From: Brachypterus glaber
Lineage: Eukaryota > Arthropoda > Insecta > Coleoptera > Kateretidae
NCBI GenBank assembly: GCA_958510825.1
Contig: OY294048.1
Coordinates: 30,593,026-30,657,025 of the forward strand
DNA: 64,000 nt
Direction of reading: 5' to 3'
The position numbers and the translations under genes are program-made. The notes under the pieces are model-generated. The model made no database searches. It had not been told where the DNA came from and saw only the letters and a list, made by a program, of their open reading frames with translations. Shown in pieces: positions 22,649 through 57,320 of the stretch (within the stretch, counting starts at the first letter, position 1; each line of letters begins with the position of its first letter).

Positions 22649-22835
22649 ATGTATTTACCCATACATAAAGAATACACCTGCCAGTGATATACATATCTAT
22701 AAATTTACAACTATAAATAAAGCAGCTTTATTAAAGCTATTTAAACTAAATTAAATTGTTTGATATTTACAAATTTAAAAGATCTATATAAAACATTTTA
22801 CTATTCCTTAAAACGACTTTTGTTTGATTAACGCA

Positions 22836-22912
22836 GTCGTCCCTCCGAAGTGACTGATCGATTTCGTGCTTTTTAGCACTCTTCAGAGCCACATATCGGT
22901 AGTAGGGACAAC
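22836..22912 (-). ncRNA. Hammerhead ribozyme, type I, copy 1
   Basis: Read on the minus strand: helix I outer strand GTTGTCCCT, internal loop ACTACCGATAT, inner strand GTGGCT, core CTGAAGA, helix II GTGCT-AAAA-AGCAC, core GAAA, short helix III around TCGAT, cleavage-site C at 22856, then AGTCAC pairing with GTGGCT (one G-U), loop TTCGG and AGGGACGAC pairing with GTTGTCCCT. All conserved core bases of the hammerhead are present (CUGANGA with N = A, GAAA, U16.1-H17). Helix III is only 2-3 bp with almost no loop, as known for Penelope-like and newt-type hammerheads that work best as dimers. It is identical over 77 nt to the copy at 23432-23508. Confidence 0.88.
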
Positions 22913-23178
22913 TACGAAAATCAAATCCTTTCCATATATCTCTATATAGAGTTTAAAAATCGTTACAAGGAAAAGCAAAAACAGCTAGCGACATCTACTG
23001 CTAAAAGCAGAGACTGGATAAACCTATCGACAGTCCAAAAAAGGAAGCAGTTATTGGTTTTAAGAACCTATTGCAAGCTGTCGATAGGTGGCAGATTAAT
23101 CAATGCCACGGTGGACATTGCCGCCAATTGAATCCTAAACGCTAGGAGGTCACCTTTTACAGTGGTATCTGAATTAAT

Positions 23179-23299
23179 AAACTAAATTAAATTGTTTGAT
23201 ATTTACAAATTTAAAAGATCTATATAAAACATTTTACTATTCCTTAAAACGACTTTTGTTTGATTAACGCAGTCGTCCCTCCGAAGTGACTGATCGATT
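23179..23299 (-). repeat. Partial retroelement unit with half hammerhead
   Basis: This repeats the start of the unit at 22743 almost exactly, in the same orientation, and stops inside the hammerhead: it retains GTCGTCCCT (23272-23280), the inner helix I strand and GATCGATT, then switches at 23299/23300 to the oppositely oriented unit. The break falls in the GAAA core, so this half cannot self-cleave. Confidence 0.85.
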
Positions 23300-23431
23300 C
23301 CTTTTTTGGACTGTCGATAGGTTTATCCAGTCTCTGCTTTTAGCAGTAGATGTCGCTAGCTGTTTTTGCTTTTCCTTGTAACGATTTTTAAACTCTATAT
23401 AGAGATATATGGAAAGGATTTGATTTTCGTA

Positions 23432-23508
23432 GTTGTCCCTACTACCGATATGTGGCTCTGAAGAGTGCTAAAAAGCACGAAATCGATCAGTCACTTCGGA
23501 GGGACGAC
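23432..23508 (+). ncRNA. Hammerhead ribozyme, type I, copy 2
   Basis: Same 77-nt motif as at 22836-22912 but on the plus strand. CTGAAGA is at 23458-23464, the helix II hairpin GTGCTAAAAAGCAC is at 23465-23478, GAAA is at 23479-23482, the predicted cleavage-site C is at 23488, and the helix I strands pair GTTGTCCCT with AGGGACGAC and GTGGCT with AGTCAC. Downstream lies TGCGTTAATCAAACAAAAGT and the right target duplication. Copy 1 and copy 2 could also pair with each other in full in a read-through transcript, competing with ribozyme folding. Confidence 0.9.
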
Positions 23509-23565
23509 TGCGTTAATCAAACAAAAGTCGTTTTAAGGAAAATGTTTTATATAAAGCTATTTAAA

Positions 23566-30200: not shown

Positions 30201-30904
30201 GTCTAGTCTGGTTACCGATATTTTTTTGTGGACCTGTGTAGTAGTTATTTTTTAACTTTAATTTCTAGAATCAACCAAATCCCCCAACCTGGACTTTCTC
30301 AATATTACGCACGTGTGCGTAATCGCTTATTCGCGAAACAAAAAAGAGTGTAAAATTAGGCATTTACAAATCTGGTCTGTAGAAGAAAAAAAATATGCAC
30401 TAGTTTAGGGTTCTTTTAGATTTGGTCAGTAATATTTGAAATTAGAAATCAATATCAATATAAGCCAAAGTTACATAATGTAGATTCATTTCGTGTAATG
30501 GCGGAAATTTCGTTAGAGTTTTTGCTGTAATTTGATGGAAAGCGAAAAATGCAAAGTTCGAATCCAATCAATTTTAACAACTCGTCCCAACGATCAAGAC
30601 TATTTAGACTTTCACCATTATTCTAATGTATTTTTTTTTACGTATTAAAACGAAATGACAGCTATCGCACATTGGTCTCATTTAAATGTAATTATGACTA
30701 CTTTAATAGCATAACTCTTAAATGATTGTCAATTATAGAATTACTATATTGTAGCATACTGTGCCAAAATATTATATTCTCGTTTTGTTGATGAAATAGG
30801 CACATGTGGCGAAATGTCAATACTTATTAGGTAATAACTAAATTATATTTAGCAACCACTACCACTAAACGTTTTTTACTTTTGTAAAAAATTCAAAAAA
30901 ACCT
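30201..30904. other. Unassigned spacer
   Basis: No gene is recognised. A dispersed-repeat fragment (TTTTTGTGGACCTGTGTA) is at about 30213-30230. Confidence 0.45.
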
Positions 30905-32536
30905 GCAAATCTATCCAAATAAAGGCCACAGTTGTACAACAGCACTATTAAAAGTCACAGATGACATATTAAAATTTATGGACGAAGGATTAGTAATCAT
31001 TCTCATTTTATTAGATTTCAGTAAAGCTTTCGACACTATTAATAGAGAAATACTTTTAGCTATTTTAGAAAACTATAACCTCGATAATACTGCCCTACAA
31101 CTCATTAAATCTTTTTTGTCCAACAGATCTCAAAGAGTAAAATTATATAACAAAACGTCTATTCCCTTAAATGTCGAACTAGGTACTCCTCAAGGAGCAA
31201 TACTATCTCCTCTCCTTTTCGCAATATACACATCAAAACTAATAAGCGTTATAAAACATTGTTTATACCACCTGTATGCTGACGATACGCAACTGTACCG
31301 TGCTTTCAAAATTATGGATTTAAAACAAAAATTAGCAGAAATTATATCAGACCTAGAAAGAATATTTACGGAATCTAAAAAACATTGCCTACAGCAAACC
31401 CAAATAAATCAGTTGCTCTAGTTTTTGGAACAAAACCACAATGTGAACTCGTAAAGTCAGAAGGAATAATCAAGGTAAATGATAGCACTATTCCCTATGT
31501 AAGTAGTCACAAAAACCTAGGTCTCATAATCGACAACACTTTTAGATATAAAGAACACCTCAAAAAATGTATAGGTAAAGGTTATGGCAATTTAAAAAAA
31601 TTATTTTCTCATAGAGCGTACCTAAGCATACCAACTAAAAAGCTATTATGCGAAGCACTAGTTTTATCTCAAATTCGTTTCTGCGGTACCGTATTTTATC
31701 CGTGTCTAGATCAAGAATATAAAGAAAAATTACAAAAACTTCAAAACTCATGCATAAGGTTTATACACGGTGTTAGAAAGCGGGAAAGAGTTTCGTACTA
31801 TCGTAAACGCCTCGGCTGGTTCAAAGTATGCGAAATGTTTCAACTCCAAAATGCTACCCTTTTCTATAAAATAATTGTCAATAAAAAACCTAGTTATCTA
31901 GAAAGGAAAATTAAATATCGCACCGATATTCATGCATTAAGTTTAAGAAATAAAAAGTTTAACTTAGCTACTGAACACAAAAAAGAGTTATTTAAAAGAA
32001 GTTTTTCCTACCAGATTTGTTCATTCTACAATAAATTTCACAATTTCTTTATTTTTAGCTTACCAAGATTTAAAAGATATGTCTCTGAAACCATAAAAAG
32101 TTGAAGTATTTTTTTTTCTCGCTAAAATGATTAACTGATCAATAAATATTATAGTTTATTTATATTTGGTTTTTTTAATATTGTTTCTTGCTTTTCACAC
32201 TAATTTCGAATTTTGATGATATATTTTATTTTATTTTTGTATTTCCCATAATCATTTATTATTTTGGTGTCGGGAAAACTATATAGTTCATATATTTATT
32301 TTATATTATTTTTTTTTAAGGGTTAAGAGGTAGAGCAGAGGATGCAATTGGTTCTATGTGCATAACTGTATCACAAACTTGCGCGCATATTGTGCACTTG
32401 ATTGTGCTTATTTATTTATGTACACTGGGATCATTTGAATCCACCTGAACTTCGCCCTTCGGCTTAATTTGTTGTAATACTTTATTGTAATTAATCTGCG
32501 GTAATAAAGACAATTTATTATTATTATTATTATTAA
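30905..32536 (+). mobile_element. 5'-truncated non-LTR retrotransposon (LINE)
   Basis: The element contains the C-terminal half of a reverse-transcriptase frame, then a ~430-bp AT-rich 3' untranslated region ending AATAAAGACAATTTA(TTA)n at about 32501-32536. The 5' end is truncated within the palm/fingers region. The microsatellite tail is typical of Jockey/CR1-type LINEs. Confidence 0.88.
30915..32104 (+). pseudogene. LINE reverse transcriptase, truncated and frameshifted
   Basis: An RNA-templated DNA polymerase fragment of a non-LTR retrotransposon. Before the first ATG (30978) the same frame already reads KGHSCTTALL, a conserved RT motif (normally FRKGHSCTTAL), so the visible ORF start is artificial. 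Then come LDFSKAFDTI (catalytic D), GTPQGAILSPLLF and the YADD active site. Near 31395-31403 the frame shifts by one base: the sequence carries on in another frame as ANPNKSVALVFG and runs to 32104 through the thumb/C-terminal region (KNLGLIID, LLCEALVLSQIRFC). The endonuclease and N-terminus are missing. Family placement as Jockey/CR1-like is inference. Confidence 0.88.
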
Positions 32537-46383: not shown

Positions 46384-46451
46384 AAAGGTAAGTATAAACT
46401 AAATTAAATTGTTTGATATTTACAAATTTAAAAGATCTATATAAAACATTT

Positions 46452-46831
46452 CGACACTCCCAAGCAACAAGGACGTAACTCAAGTTAGACCCATTTTGAG
46501 TTATACTCATAGGTAAACGCCTTGAAAAAAAACACACATGGTGGTACTACTCAGATTTCTCCACAGGCCATTTTAACCAAAAGTTTACCTAAAAACACTA
46601 AAGTAAAAAATTTTAAACTTGAATATTATCAGAAACAAACAATAAATAAACAATAAATACTTATACAGTTAAATAGAGAATTTTATAAGCTTTCAAATGA
46701 CGTATCGCATGGCTTCCTTTTCCACTTCAATGATTTACTCACCCTTAAATAACAAAAAAAATATTTTAGAAATTTAGCTGTCGTGAAAAATGACAATATA
46801 TGAGTTACGGCTTTGTTGCTTGGGGGTATCG
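46452..46831. mobile_element. MITE with ATTT target duplication
   Basis: CGACACTCCCAAGCAACAAG at the left mirrors CTTTGTTGCTTGGGGGTATCG at the right, continuing into GTAACTCA / TGAGTTAC. ATTT is duplicated outside (46448-46451 and 46832-46835). It is 380 bp, non-coding, and inserted in the hammerhead retroelement copy B. Confidence 0.83.
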
Positions 46832-46840
46832 ATTTTACTA

Positions 46841-46908
46841 CTACCGATATGTGGCTCTGAAGAGTGCTAAAAAGCACAAAATCGATCAGTCACTTCGGAG
46901 GGACGACT
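46841..46908 (+). ncRNA. Hammerhead ribozyme, decayed copy 3
   Basis: CTACCGATATGTGGCT, CTGAAGA and the helix II hairpin GTGCTAAAAAGCAC are as in the 22.8-kb copies, but the following core reads AAAA instead of GAAA: the G at position 12, the general base of the hammerhead reaction, is changed to A. The outer helix I strand GTTGTCCCT is also missing because the inverted junction lies just upstream. Self-cleavage is therefore not expected. Confidence 0.85.
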
Positions 46909-46967
46909 GCGTTAATCAAACAAAAGTCGTTTTAAGGAATAGTAAAATGTTTTATAAAGGTAAGTAT

Positions 46968-54178: not shown

Positions 54179-56719
54179 TTAGGGCCGGTTTGTGACCTTT
54201 CCAGTCTTAGACCTTTCCAGTCTTAATTGTGGTATACAAAGATCAGTCTTATTTCTCGTATTATATGTGTGTTTTACGTTTTGTGGGAAGAGATCTGGGT
54301 TCTTCCTAAGATAAATTAGGCAATTTAATATAAACAAAGAAGGAAAAGTAAGGATCCCCAACTTGATAAAGTGCTGTTTGCATTCATCCCTATATTTCAA
54401 ACCCGCAACTATTCTAAGTGCTTGGCGTTGTAACCCGAAGATCCGGTGCCTACATGACGAGTGACCCCAGGCTACAATACCATAGTTTAGCAGCGATTGA
54501 AACAGAGCGAAGAATGCATTTCGCAATATTGGCTCTGACAGACATAATGAAAGTGATCGAAGTAGGTAAATATTTTTGCATAGCTTTTTTGATAAAGCAG
54601 TACCATGGTTATTCCAGGTCAACTCAGAATCTAGATGTAGACCTAAAAATTTCACACTTGTTGATAGATCTTGATCTTCTAGGTTTCGCAAAGTAAAAAT
54701 CATATTAACGGTTTTACTTTGATTAAGACATAATCTGTTATCCAAGAACCACACAGAGGCTTTCAATTGTATGTCACGAATTTTAATCGATCCCATTATA
54801 AAGGATTCATCTTGGACCCCGAAATTTGTGTCATCTGCAAATAATGTGCAAGCTGCGTCCGACACAAATTCCGGTAGGTCGTTAATAAAAATTAAAAAAA
54901 GTAAAGGGCCTAGGATAGACCCTTGTGGTATCCCAAATCCCACAGGCCTGTCTTCAGACCGAGATCCGTTGAACAGTACCTGTTGGGTTCTACCAAATAA
55001 ATAGGAACTTATTAATTTAACACTATTAGGATCAAAATTGTAGTAATACAGTTTTCTTATTAAGATATCATGGGATACACAATCGAAAGCCTTCGTGAGA
55101 TCCAAGAATGTGGCAAAATTGAATTGTTTGTTTTCATAGGATGAAATTACAGTATTAATAAATTTAAGTATAGCGTCAATAGTCGATTTACCCCTGCGAA
55201 ACCCGAATTGATCCTTTGTGAAGAAATCAAAAGTTTCGAAATAATGACAGATTTGGTCAAAAAGTATCCTTTCGAACACCTTTGACAAAATTTGAAGTAA
55301 TGAAATTGGTCTGTAGGAGTTGGTATCGTTTATATTATTATTTTTGGGCACTGGAACAACCACAGCACGCTTTAGTTCATCTGGAAAGATGCCTTCCACT
55401 ATACAATGGTTTATTATTTTGGTAAATGGCGTAATTATTTGATTCTTTATTGTTTTAATAAGATCAGAGTTAAATCCAAAAATATCTCTGCTATTGCTAT
55501 TTTTTAATTTATCTATCGCAGATCGGACCTTGTTAAAGGTCACTTCTCTAAAGTTAAAATTAGCATTAACATTTGGCATGTTCGTCATATGACTAATAGG
55601 GTCATTTTTAGGTACACCTAAAGAATCAATAACATTCTGGGCAATGTTTGAAAAGTAATCATTAAACTCTTCCGCAGAAATGTTACATTTTTCTGCTGGC
55701 TTTTTTATAGTCTTTTTGTTTTTATTTATTAAAGTCCACATAGTTTTTTGTGGGTTACTAGAACTTTTTACAAAATTATCATTTTCTTTGATTTTTTCCT
55801 TTTTAATATTTGCACTATATCTGGACTTAAATTGCTGGTACAGCTGTTTATTACCTTCAGTAGGATTCAGTTTACAGGCATCATATATAAGACCTAATGT
55901 TTCCCTTTGATGTATCAAATCAGCTGTAAACCAATTTGGTTTGCAGTATGCACCATCAGAAATTTTGTAACATTTCTCCGGAAAAGCCTCGTTGTACTTC
56001 TCAATGAGAATATTTAAAAACATGCTAAACTTACTACCCGCATTCAGATTTGGAATATCAATAAATCCCCAACCAATATCAGAAACCATATTATAATATT
56101 TAAATTTACCAAATTGGGTGATTGGTCTTACTTTCCTGTTTAAAGTGGTGCTTTTGGTCTGTGTTAATTCTAGTTCCAAGCTTAATCCTAGGTGATCTGA
56201 AAAGAATGTATTAACAGGTTTGACACTTGCAGCATCTACAAAAAAGTTACAAAAAATGTTGTCTAAAATATTTTTACCCCTAGTTTGGAAAGAAACAAGT
56301 GCTTTAAAACCAAATTGACTGAATAAATCCTGAAGAAGATCAAATCTCTCATCATTATTATCGTTAAACCAAACATTGAAGTCACCTCCTATTAGGTAAT
56401 TTTTATCATTTATATCAATCATATTTAATAAAACTGTTAATATTGAAATAAAATTACAAAAATCGCCCGTACTACTACTACGGTATATTGTTATAATATT
56501 TAAATTAAAGTCTTTTAAAAATATTGAGCTAATCTCACAGTCTTTTTCCACTGACAACTTATTTAAGTTACAAACAGTGTCAAAGTTTACTTGTGGTTTA
56601 ACTAATTGAAGTACTCCACCATGTGTATGTATGTGTATGTATACTATACTATACACACAAATGGTGTGCATGTGTTTCCTCAGGTGGCAGTGACCAGTTA
56701 TTAGCCCTATCCCTGCCAA
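54179..56719 (-). CDS. LINE ORF2: endonuclease (partial) plus reverse transcriptase
   Basis: An uninterrupted 846-codon frame. Residues 1 to about 23 (GIGLITGHCHLRKHMHTICV) are not its own: they are read from the host RNase H LINE, followed by target/microsatellite sequence, and the LINE proper starts near residue 34 (GGVLQLVK). An apurinic-endonuclease-like domain follows: IGGDFNV at about 110-116 and the SDH catalytic motif at 174-176; its first ~80 residues are lost. The reverse transcriptase has SYRPISLL (468-475), FGFRRGKST (505-513), FLDLTKAFD (538-546), IPQGSILGPLLF (597-608) and catalytic FADD (627-630), then the thumb (VKFLGLHLDSELTW) and YNTRNK. A 16-bp tandem duplication shifts the frame, so the stop at 54179 is premature; the original frame would end at 54022. 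The start codon shown is not functional evidence. Confidence 0.92.
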   Translation of the reverse strand: MAGIGLITGHCHLRKHMHTICVYSIVYIHIHTHGGVLQLVKPQVNFDTVCNLNKLSVEKDCEISSIFLKDFNLNIITIYRSSSTGDFCNFISILTVLLNMIDINDKNYLIGGDFNVWFNDNNDERFDLLQDLFSQFGFKALVSFQTRGKNILDNIFCNFFVDAASVKPVNTFFSDHLGLSLELELTQTKSTTLNRKVRPITQFGKFKYYNMVSDIGWGFIDIPNLNAGSKFSMFLNILIEKYNEAFPEKCYKISDGAYCKPNWFTADLIHQRETLGLIYDACKLNPTEGNKQLYQQFKSRYSANIKKEKIKENDNFVKSSSNPQKTMWTLINKNKKTIKKPAEKCNISAEEFNDYFSNIAQNVIDSLGVPKNDPISHMTNMPNVNANFNFREVTFNKVRSAIDKLKNSNSRDIFGFNSDLIKTIKNQIITPFTKIINHCIVEGIFPDELKRAVVVPVPKNNNINDTNSYRPISLLQILSKVFERILFDQICHYFETFDFFTKDQFGFRRGKSTIDAILKFINTVISSYENKQFNFATFLDLTKAFDCVSHDILIRKLYYYNFDPNSVKLISSYLFGRTQQVLFNGSRSEDRPVGFGIPQGSILGPLLFLIFINDLPEFVSDAACTLFADDTNFGVQDESFIMGSIKIRDIQLKASVWFLDNRLCLNQSKTVNMIFTLRNLEDQDLSTSVKFLGLHLDSELTWNNHGTALSKKLCKNIYLLRSLSLCLSEPILRNAFFALFQSLLNYGIVAWGHSSCRHRIFGLQRQALRIVAGLKYRDECKQHFIKLGILTFPSLFILNCLIYLRKNPDLFPQNVKHTYNTRNKTDLCIPQLRLERSKTGKVTNRP
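54194..54225. repeat. 16-bp tandem duplication breaking the LINE C-terminus
   Basis: GACCTTTCCAGTCTTA occurs twice in direct succession (54194-54209 and 54210-54225). With one unit the minus-strand frame would continue from LRLERS into an alternative reading (QTGPNYYC...) that stays open to 54022 and has typical LINE C-terminal composition; with two units it ends at 54179. Confidence 0.9.
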
Positions 56720-57320
56720 GATGTAGAAGGTTCTTGGTTAGTGGACCAGCAGTTATTGCACCGCCAAGTATTAACTTGCTTTGCCTGAGTCCCGGTGCCT
56801 GACCCCACTGTAAATTTTGCTGGGATGTTATCCAGTTGGATATCCAGCTCTTTACCGTGGTTTTGGTTATGCCAATAGCCGGCTCAGGTCCAATGAAGGG
56901 AGTTTCCGAACCTTCTCTTGCGAGTTGATCTGCTCTCTCATTGCCATCAATGCCTTTGTTCCCTGGCACCCACCCTAAGGTTACTTTATTGTGGTTGGCT
57001 AAGGTTATCAGGTTATTTCAAAGGTCCCAAACCTGTTTAGATTTGGTTTCAAAGTTAGATATGGCTTTGATTGCCGATTGACTATCAGAAAGTATGAGGA
57101 TTTTCCTATTACTATAGTCCCTCCTCAAGTTTTCCTGAATACACTTATTAATAGCATATACTTCTGCTTGAAATACAGTAGCATACCTCCCAAGAGAAAG
57201 CGATTTGTCCCATTTGACAGTTGCCCCGTGTATTCCAGCACCAGTTCCACTGTTCATCTTAGAGCCATCCGTGTACCAGACTAAGCCCTGCGTTCGACAG
57301 TGTTGTTTAACATACTCCAT
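56649..57320 (-). pseudogene. LINE RNase H domain
   Basis: The RNase H that removes template RNA in LINEs of the I/R1/LOA side. The segment at 57018-57320 has WYTDGSKMNSG (first catalytic D), FQAEVYAI (E) and LILSDSQSAIKA (second D). After an in-frame TGA near 57016 the same frame continues with GWVPGNKGIDGNERADQLA (the fourth motif, GNERAD) to about 56700, where the frame shifts into GLITGHCHLRKHMH. The broken frame shows it is inactive. The closing knuckle lies at 53716-53907. Confidence 0.9.

Follow-up and report, generated by a model that had tools for sequence, protein, structure and literature searches.

A dispersed hammerhead retrozyme family in Brachypterus glaber whose inverted insertions resemble those of Penelope-like elements

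The 64,000-nucleotide stretch of Brachypterus glaber DNA analysed here (contig OY294048.1, positions 30,593,026 to 30,657,025, assembly GCA_958510825.1; hereafter the window) contains one retrotransposon-like insertion, at positions 22732-23565, which is bounded by a 14-bp target duplication, is built from a 436-nt unit without a protein and has a type I hammerhead ribozyme core on each strand. Judged by this content, a non-coding 436-nt unit with a type I hammerhead, the insertion is a retrozyme. Having compared it with related copies across the genome, we think it probable that it belongs to a dispersed family of retrozymes not flanked by long terminal repeats (LTRs), copied by an enzyme of the Penelope-like element (PLE) type that starts on both cut strands of the target. 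Four features that can be read directly from the insertion sequences carry this view: two fixed start sites, the pairing of one with the other, head-to-head arms, and arms longer than one unit. What stands out is the anatomy of the insertions.

The original prediction had described a non-autonomous, retrozyme-like relative of Penelope elements with two identical hammerheads in opposite orientation. The absence of a long frame, the type I hammerhead, the tandem copies and the duplications all support that description, and the inverted, two-start-site architecture of PLEs seen in the genome copies adds further support for the Penelope relation. The 77-nt motifs match each other exactly and are found at the positions given for them, and the tandem period of 436 bp is exact, 22742-22863 matching 23178-23299 at 100%. 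A direct duplication does bound the insertion, but it measures 14 bp (22732-22745 and 23552-23565) and not 13 bp as first reported. A 243-nt inverted repeat that had escaped the earlier description (22804-23046 and 23298-23540) joins a minus arm to a plus arm. The final bases of the complete unit overlap the duplication by microhomology, and the plus arm has a small deletion near its end, an outer end at the start site that we call A and an inner end at a hot spot at unit positions 131-133. The substrate half of an upstream hammerhead would leave one full unit between two potential cut sites. No reading frame of at least 110 amino acids was found within the insertion, and the GC content of the unit is 36%. 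The features of the insertion are as follows.

22732-22745, no strand: left target-site duplication TAAAGCTATTTAAA, an exact direct repeat of 23552-23565
22742-23177, minus strand: complete 436-nt unit (unit 1 at 23177, unit 436 at 22742), from the 436 period and 100% repeat
22742-22787, minus strand: 'tail', unit 391-436, between start sites A (~391) and B (~435), from unit mapping and the predicted fold
22836-22912, minus strand: hammerhead copy 1, predicted cleavage after 22856, from Rfam, fold and descriptor
23178-23299, minus strand: incomplete second turn of the minus arm, covering unit 315-436 and matching 22742-22863 at 100%
23285-23299, minus strand: putative substrate half of the upstream hammerhead, predicted cut after 23292 (22856 + 436), placed from the 436-bp period
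23298-23551, plus strand: inverted arm, unit 132 to about 391, from mapping onto the unit
23432-23508, plus strand: hammerhead copy 2, predicted cleavage after 23488, from Rfam, fold and descriptor
23552-23565, no strand: right target-site duplication TAAAGCTATTTAAA, an exact direct repeat of 22732-22745

Both 77-nt motifs contain the conserved hammerhead letters previously pointed out (CUGAAGA, GAAA and U-C) and the 5-bp helix II. They have the CUGANGA / GAAA / U16.1-H17 core, helices I and II and the open helix I of a type I hammerhead. Helix I runs through 6 bp, an internal loop, 4 bp and a bulge into a further 9 to 13 bp, and helix III, as read from the sequence, consists of one A-U pair with the palindrome UCGA as its closing loop. 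A descriptor of our own (CUGANGA, helix II of at least 4 bp, GAAA, UH, helix I of at least 5 bp) matched these two motifs alone on both strands of the 64 kb, against a mean of 0.0 matches in 60 first-order Markov simulated windows, and predicted cleavage after 23488 on the plus strand and after 22856 on the minus strand. The predicted fold of the 77 nt is stable (z -5.3, 200 shuffles), and the unit drawn as a circle is predicted to be 68% paired at -132 kcal/mol (z -4.4 against 100 simulated sequences). The covariance-model check that had been proposed gave a positive result short of the threshold: Hammerhead_HH9 (RF02275), the best-scoring Rfam model, matched each copy at 28.4 bits (E 8.5e-5 in a search space of 901 bases), but this is below its gathering score of 52; helix III is shorter here than in that model.

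A genome-wide search of the 436-bp unit, also proposed earlier, yielded dispersed copies and over-length tandem arms. In the window's own genome (648 Mb, 842 contigs), it returned 148 matches at 40 sites (the best 40 of 239 candidates). Part of the 148 rows served to cluster the sites, and the remaining rows, checked by eye, fell into the same clusters. Our set of 41 sites consists of these 40, one of which (L070) is the studied insertion, and a second copy in the window. The core letters of the hammerhead are kept in 72 of 75 full copies, the three broken cores being in L048, L054 and L064. Among divergent loci, which are ~80-84% like the unit over the matched stretches, the core is intact in L032 and L055 but not in L054 and L064; it is also intact in a further divergent copy, L086. 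Across 33 distinct hammerhead sequences 96.8% of the pair cells are paired, a value reached by 10 of 500 shuffles, and controls slid along the sequence gave 33-51%.

The arms of these insertions are arranged in a constant order. A minus arm on the left meets a plus arm on the right in 34 of the 41 sites, including one (L036) that reads minus-plus-minus-plus, and no site has only the order plus then minus. A second search, made with a straight unit of a second subfamily (90 matches in 39 clusters; the best 40 of 594 candidates), is of weight here because the first query itself held the head-to-head junction; both orientations were present in 18 of the 39 clusters, always minus then plus (18 of 18), and one orientation in 21. 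The arms of L040 had appeared to come from different RNA subfamilies (84% versus 99%). This was dropped, since the mismatch is mostly explained by a deletion that leaves the minus arm ~42 nt shorter than the unit stretch.

The outer ends lie on the RNA 3' side, mostly at unit 386-405 (start site A, ~390) or 432-442 (start site B, ~435), and those adjoining a duplication mostly read ...TTTAGTTT or ...AATGTTTTAT. When ends were classified by program (A = 376-412, B = 426-8), 29 sites could be assigned, giving 27 AB, 2 BB and 0 AA pairs, while 12 of the 41 were not classifiable; shuffling the ends of the 29 gave a mean of 14.7 A/B pairs, and 0 of 200,000 shuffles reached 27. The limits of A, B and the 131-133 interval were chosen after the data had been seen. 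Twenty-seven of the 41 sites have a confident duplication, and 24 of these are AB, 2 BB and 1 other, with an end at unit 347 (shuffled mean 13.1; 0 of 200,000 reach 24). This set was picked by eye, leaving out L032, L033, L034, L037, L038, L041, L052, L053, L054, L055, L057, L060, L064 and L069 as lacking a duplication of at least 9 bp that convincingly abuts the ends; three of its end values were unrolled past 436, and for L047 the right end (unit 403) was judged visually. Five further sites were tried, not as a random sample but as main-family clusters picked from the second-query results; four could be resolved, each of them A/B with repeats of 12-14 bp, while for the fifth (L080) the right end is outside the fetched stretch. 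In the predicted fold, A and B sit on opposite sides of the base of a single, weakly predicted hairpin (392-396/432-436).

The duplications differ between sites and measure 9-17 bp, mostly 12-14, in the 27-site set. Their flanks have AC before in 9 of 27 and GT after in 11 of 27, against a background of 5%, a symmetry that would be expected of two like cuts, one on each strand. We found no poly(A) or simple-repeat 3' tail at the ends next to duplications, such as would mark a short interspersed element mobilised by a long interspersed element (LINE).

The main competitor for these data is LINE-type twin priming, in which an L1- or RTE-like enzyme would start on one strand and the second overhang would prime inside the same RNA, leaving a 5' inversion. 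Twin priming also yields inversions, target duplications and microhomology at inner junctions. All three are present here, and the window itself holds a frame with an RVT_1 match that looks by eye to be of the non-LTR type. We nevertheless regard this explanation as unlikely: the ends lack the tail just mentioned, the flanks are near-symmetric (AAC...GTT), and the second start is not scattered: 27 of the 29 classifiable sites have it at A, which is ~44 nt away from B. The same regularity argues against snap-back of the cDNA, in which a single start would be followed by the cDNA 3' end folding back, copying itself and then being joined to the target. Snap-back accounts for head-to-head arms and short overlaps at the inner junctions, and self-priming has been proposed for PLEs, on an antisense template (PMC3846280; for this and every paper cited below, our statements refer to the portions available to us). 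It predicts, though, that the second outer end could lie anywhere, whereas both ends are A or B in 29 of 41 sites, 27 of them A/B, and we consider it improbable. A DNA transposon or miniature inverted-repeat transposable element (MITE) bounded by terminal inverted repeats would likewise have inverted ends and target duplications, but here there is a ~44-bp difference between the ends, neither the inner junctions nor the lengths are constant across sites, and the duplications range over 9-17 bp; we give this reading practically no credence. We favor copying by a PLE-type enzyme from both cut strands.

Where the two arms meet, the ends are variable, and many show a few bases of microhomology. 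The 69 inner ends that we collected stem from 33 sites, each contributing a single minus-plus junction, together with one end from L047 and two from L057; the other copy in the window, the repeated second junction of L036 and breaks between same-strand pieces inside the L060 and L064 arms were not counted. Eleven of the 69 fall at a strong hot spot, unit 131-133 (expected 0.5), as at window position 23298, at the pyrimidine tract TTCCTTTTTTGG; L039 and L065 share an inner junction (132|369, with a 6-nt overlap), so the 11 are perhaps not all independent. Position 132 lies between two small hairpins in the predicted fold. That transcription might start at unit 131/132, in the pyrimidine tract, and so cause the hot spot is only an idea. 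None of the 69 falls at unit 319-326, around the hammerhead cut, a weak test alone with 1.3 expected.

Arms exceed one unit in 21 of 81 segments and 19 of 41 sites, the longest reaching 3.58 units. These over-length arms show that the RNA being copied was often either longer than the hammerhead-cut monomer or a closed form of it; a circle would fit, as would an uncut multimer. Sequence variants are shared between turns in 163 of 310 cases and between arms in 109 of 392 within one insertion, against 713 of 18,866 between loci, as would be expected of one template or one source. These counts treat gaps as variants and lean on the divergent L055 and L064; turns, where L055 supplies most of the figure, give 48 of 143 without it, and arms give 86 of 343 without L064. 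Two cases of an apparently mixed template were dropped, L058 because its six split variants cluster at 394-404 beside an outer end and L048 because it has no split substitution.

The tandem units raise a further possibility, that this is hammerhead satellite DNA spread by recombination without retrotransposition. Such satellites, for example pDo500 of Dolichopoda (PMC2837043) and the newt and axolotl repeats (PMC7229834), are likewise tandem, non-coding and hammerhead-bearing, and one arm in this genome, between a 14-bp repeat, contains ~10 retrozyme units (L071, L081 and L072; G000 C2:14170750-14175650), of which units 2 and 6 are identical, as are units 3 and 7. That identity suggests that the array expanded in 4-unit steps after insertion and that some of its units probably come from this later expansion. 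The copies here are, in contrast to those satellites, mostly short dispersed insertions, with target duplications around 27 of the 41 sites and around four of the five further ones, and we find spread by recombination alone very improbable.

Several observations weigh against copying of a retrozyme RNA by a PLE-type enzyme from two start sites. With regard to sampling, young, head-to-head copies were favored, because the head-to-head junction was part of the first genome query and scoring took in the best matches. In 7 of the 41 sites there is a single orientation alone. Two insertions are B/B and one has an end at unit 347. Variants split between turns occur in L055 (11), L060 (3) and L064 (2), with one each in L031, L034, L036, L057 and L065, and such variants would not be given by a single circular template. 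For the ribozyme, covariation is thin: 1 of 29 pairs changed on both sides (in 5 of 33 sequences), and 325 of 500 shuffles reach 1. No hammerhead family reached Rfam gathering level in the whole window, where the sole match at that level is a tRNA. Finally, three loci with GIY-YIG matches (L082, L083 and L084), which cover 4 of 31 such matches and were read in part, the reads of L083 and L084 reaching only ~100 bases 3' of the GIY-YIG match, showed no hammerhead (Rfam to E 5 and our own descriptor) and no notable similarity to the unit.

These loci come from a search for an autonomous partner, in which 31 GIY-YIG matches in the genome were above the cut-off (among the best 150 of 419 candidates). 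L082 (G000 C556:5600-9700) is a tandem PLE of ~3 kb per copy, with a 716-aa open frame matching RVT_1 and GIY-YIG and an 807-bp stretch repeated ~3 kb away at 99.4%. As no partner PLE was identified in the three loci read, the link to PLEs rests on the anatomy of the insertions. The 436-nt unit, having no long frame, does not encode the reverse transcriptase and GIY-YIG endonuclease by which a PLE is recognised, and on its sequence it is not itself a PLE.

Metazoan retrozymes have a type I hammerhead in tandem repeats of 150-450 bp, no protein, a GC content below 50%, target duplications longer than 4 bp and many dispersed copies (PMC7229834). The present family is like them in its 436-nt unit, 36% GC, type I hammerhead, lack of a long frame and tandem copies, and in being dispersed with duplications above 4 bp (9-17 bp in 27 of 41 sites). 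Its helix III, one pair with a palindromic loop, is like that of the axolotl and shorter than in typical invertebrate retrozymes (PMC7229834). What differs is that metazoan retrozymes have been described as tandem copies, whereas inverted insertions with two start sites are a feature here; the main text of that paper contains no occurrence of 'opposite' or 'twin prim', and the places shown for 'invert' are 'invertebrate'. Our search of the open-licence literature, covering mostly titles and the beginnings of abstracts, found no report of such an anatomy for retrozymes.

The insertions of PLEs contain direct and inverted pseudo-LTRs (pLTRs) with 8-10-bp duplications, one example having a 9-bp duplication, a 31-bp tail on one inverted end and an inverted pLTR shorter by 37 bp (PMC3846280). 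In vitro, a PLE protein cuts and extends both target strands and starts at two internal RNA sites, the tail being the interval between them (PMC11167929). The insertions studied here likewise have an inverted terminal copy, a tail at one end and a target duplication, and they share with PLEs the direct and inverted terminal copies, the target duplications and AT-rich targets, the tail being 31 and 30-40 bp in PLEs versus ~44 here (PMC3846280, PMC11167929). Start sites lie 85-92 nt downstream of the hammerhead in PAc (for one site, by our own arithmetic) versus 69 and 113 nt here (PMC11167929). Three differences should be noted: (i) the unit has no reverse transcriptase/GIY-YIG frame, (ii) the PAc hammerhead overlaps the start of the PAc open reading frame, and (iii) the two target strands did not differ in start site for PAc, whereas here there is mostly one of each per insertion (PMC11167929).

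A working model can be drawn from these comparisons, in which we infer that the machinery is that of a PLE, that cleavage takes place as a dimer and that the template is circular or multimeric. The hammerhead would cut transcripts of copies of more than one unit. As helix III has only one pair, with the palindrome UCGA to close it, the cutting form is probably a dimer; a host ligase may then circularise the cut RNA. Cuts in both target strands by a PLE-type reverse transcriptase/GIY-YIG protein, tending towards AAC/GTT, would expose 3' overhangs of ~12-14 nt. From these overhangs reverse transcription would be primed within the RNA, at foot A of the single hairpin for one and at foot B for the other, and both cDNAs would proceed 3' to 5' round the circular or multimeric RNA, often ending at unit 131-133. 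Joining of the two cDNAs in the middle would yield the head-to-head arrangement. Since arms of more than one turn occur, a full unit would be flanked by a potential cut site on either side in some insertions, the studied one included, and such insertions could give new RNA. A more specific version, in which a dimeric PLE-type enzyme acts on near-symmetric AAC(N12-14)GTT-like targets in one paired reaction, starting at A and B on uncut circular or multimeric RNA with the cDNAs then joined, we put forward only tentatively.

The second copy of the family in the window (46396-46955), absent from the earlier description, is damaged and has its own 12-bp duplication. The hammerhead in its plus arm has G12 changed to A at 46878, and a MITE-like insert lies at its arm junction.

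46384-46395, no strand: left target duplication AAAGGTAAGTAT of the second copy, a direct repeat
46396-46451, minus strand: left arm (unit 436 to 380), with its outer end at start site B, from unit mapping
46451-46832, no strand: MITE-like insert of 382 bp at the arm junction, with 32-nt terminal inverted repeats at 88%
46838-46955, plus strand: right arm (unit 273 to ~390), with its outer end at start site A, from unit mapping
46956-46967, no strand: right target duplication AAAGGTAAGTAT of the second copy, a direct repeat

Elsewhere in the window, two reverse transcriptase frames, open or partly open and of non-LTR type by eye, lie at 54179-56737 and 30888-32104; RVT_1 was found by Pfam in the former, and the 31385-32101 part of the latter gave no Pfam match. 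The genome also holds a separate canonical type I hammerhead (L085, G000 C10:30938340-30938386, plus strand), which scores 45.8 bits with RF00163, above the gathering score of 34, and whose 431-nt surroundings are unlike the retrozyme unit save for a weak 39-nt AT-rich match (E 0.026). Pattern scans of viral contig and genome contig collections gave no matches.

With regard to the enzyme that moves animal retrozymes, PLEs have been called 'a strong candidate' on the basis of shared hammerheads, tandem copies and co-occurrence (PMC7229834). A 2020 review saw no conserved motif in retrozyme repeats that would reveal the mover (PMC7761336), and a 2024 review named LINEs or PLEs (PMC11722881). The insertion anatomy of a whole family provides sequence evidence on the PLE side and names candidate start sites. 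It also offers a genomic sample of two-ended priming, which for PLEs is known, in the literature available to us, from one in vitro study and from element maps. If the paired reaction is true, it would identify the machinery that moves retrozymes, and a single mechanism would account for both the one-sided 'tail' and the head-to-head structure of PLEs.
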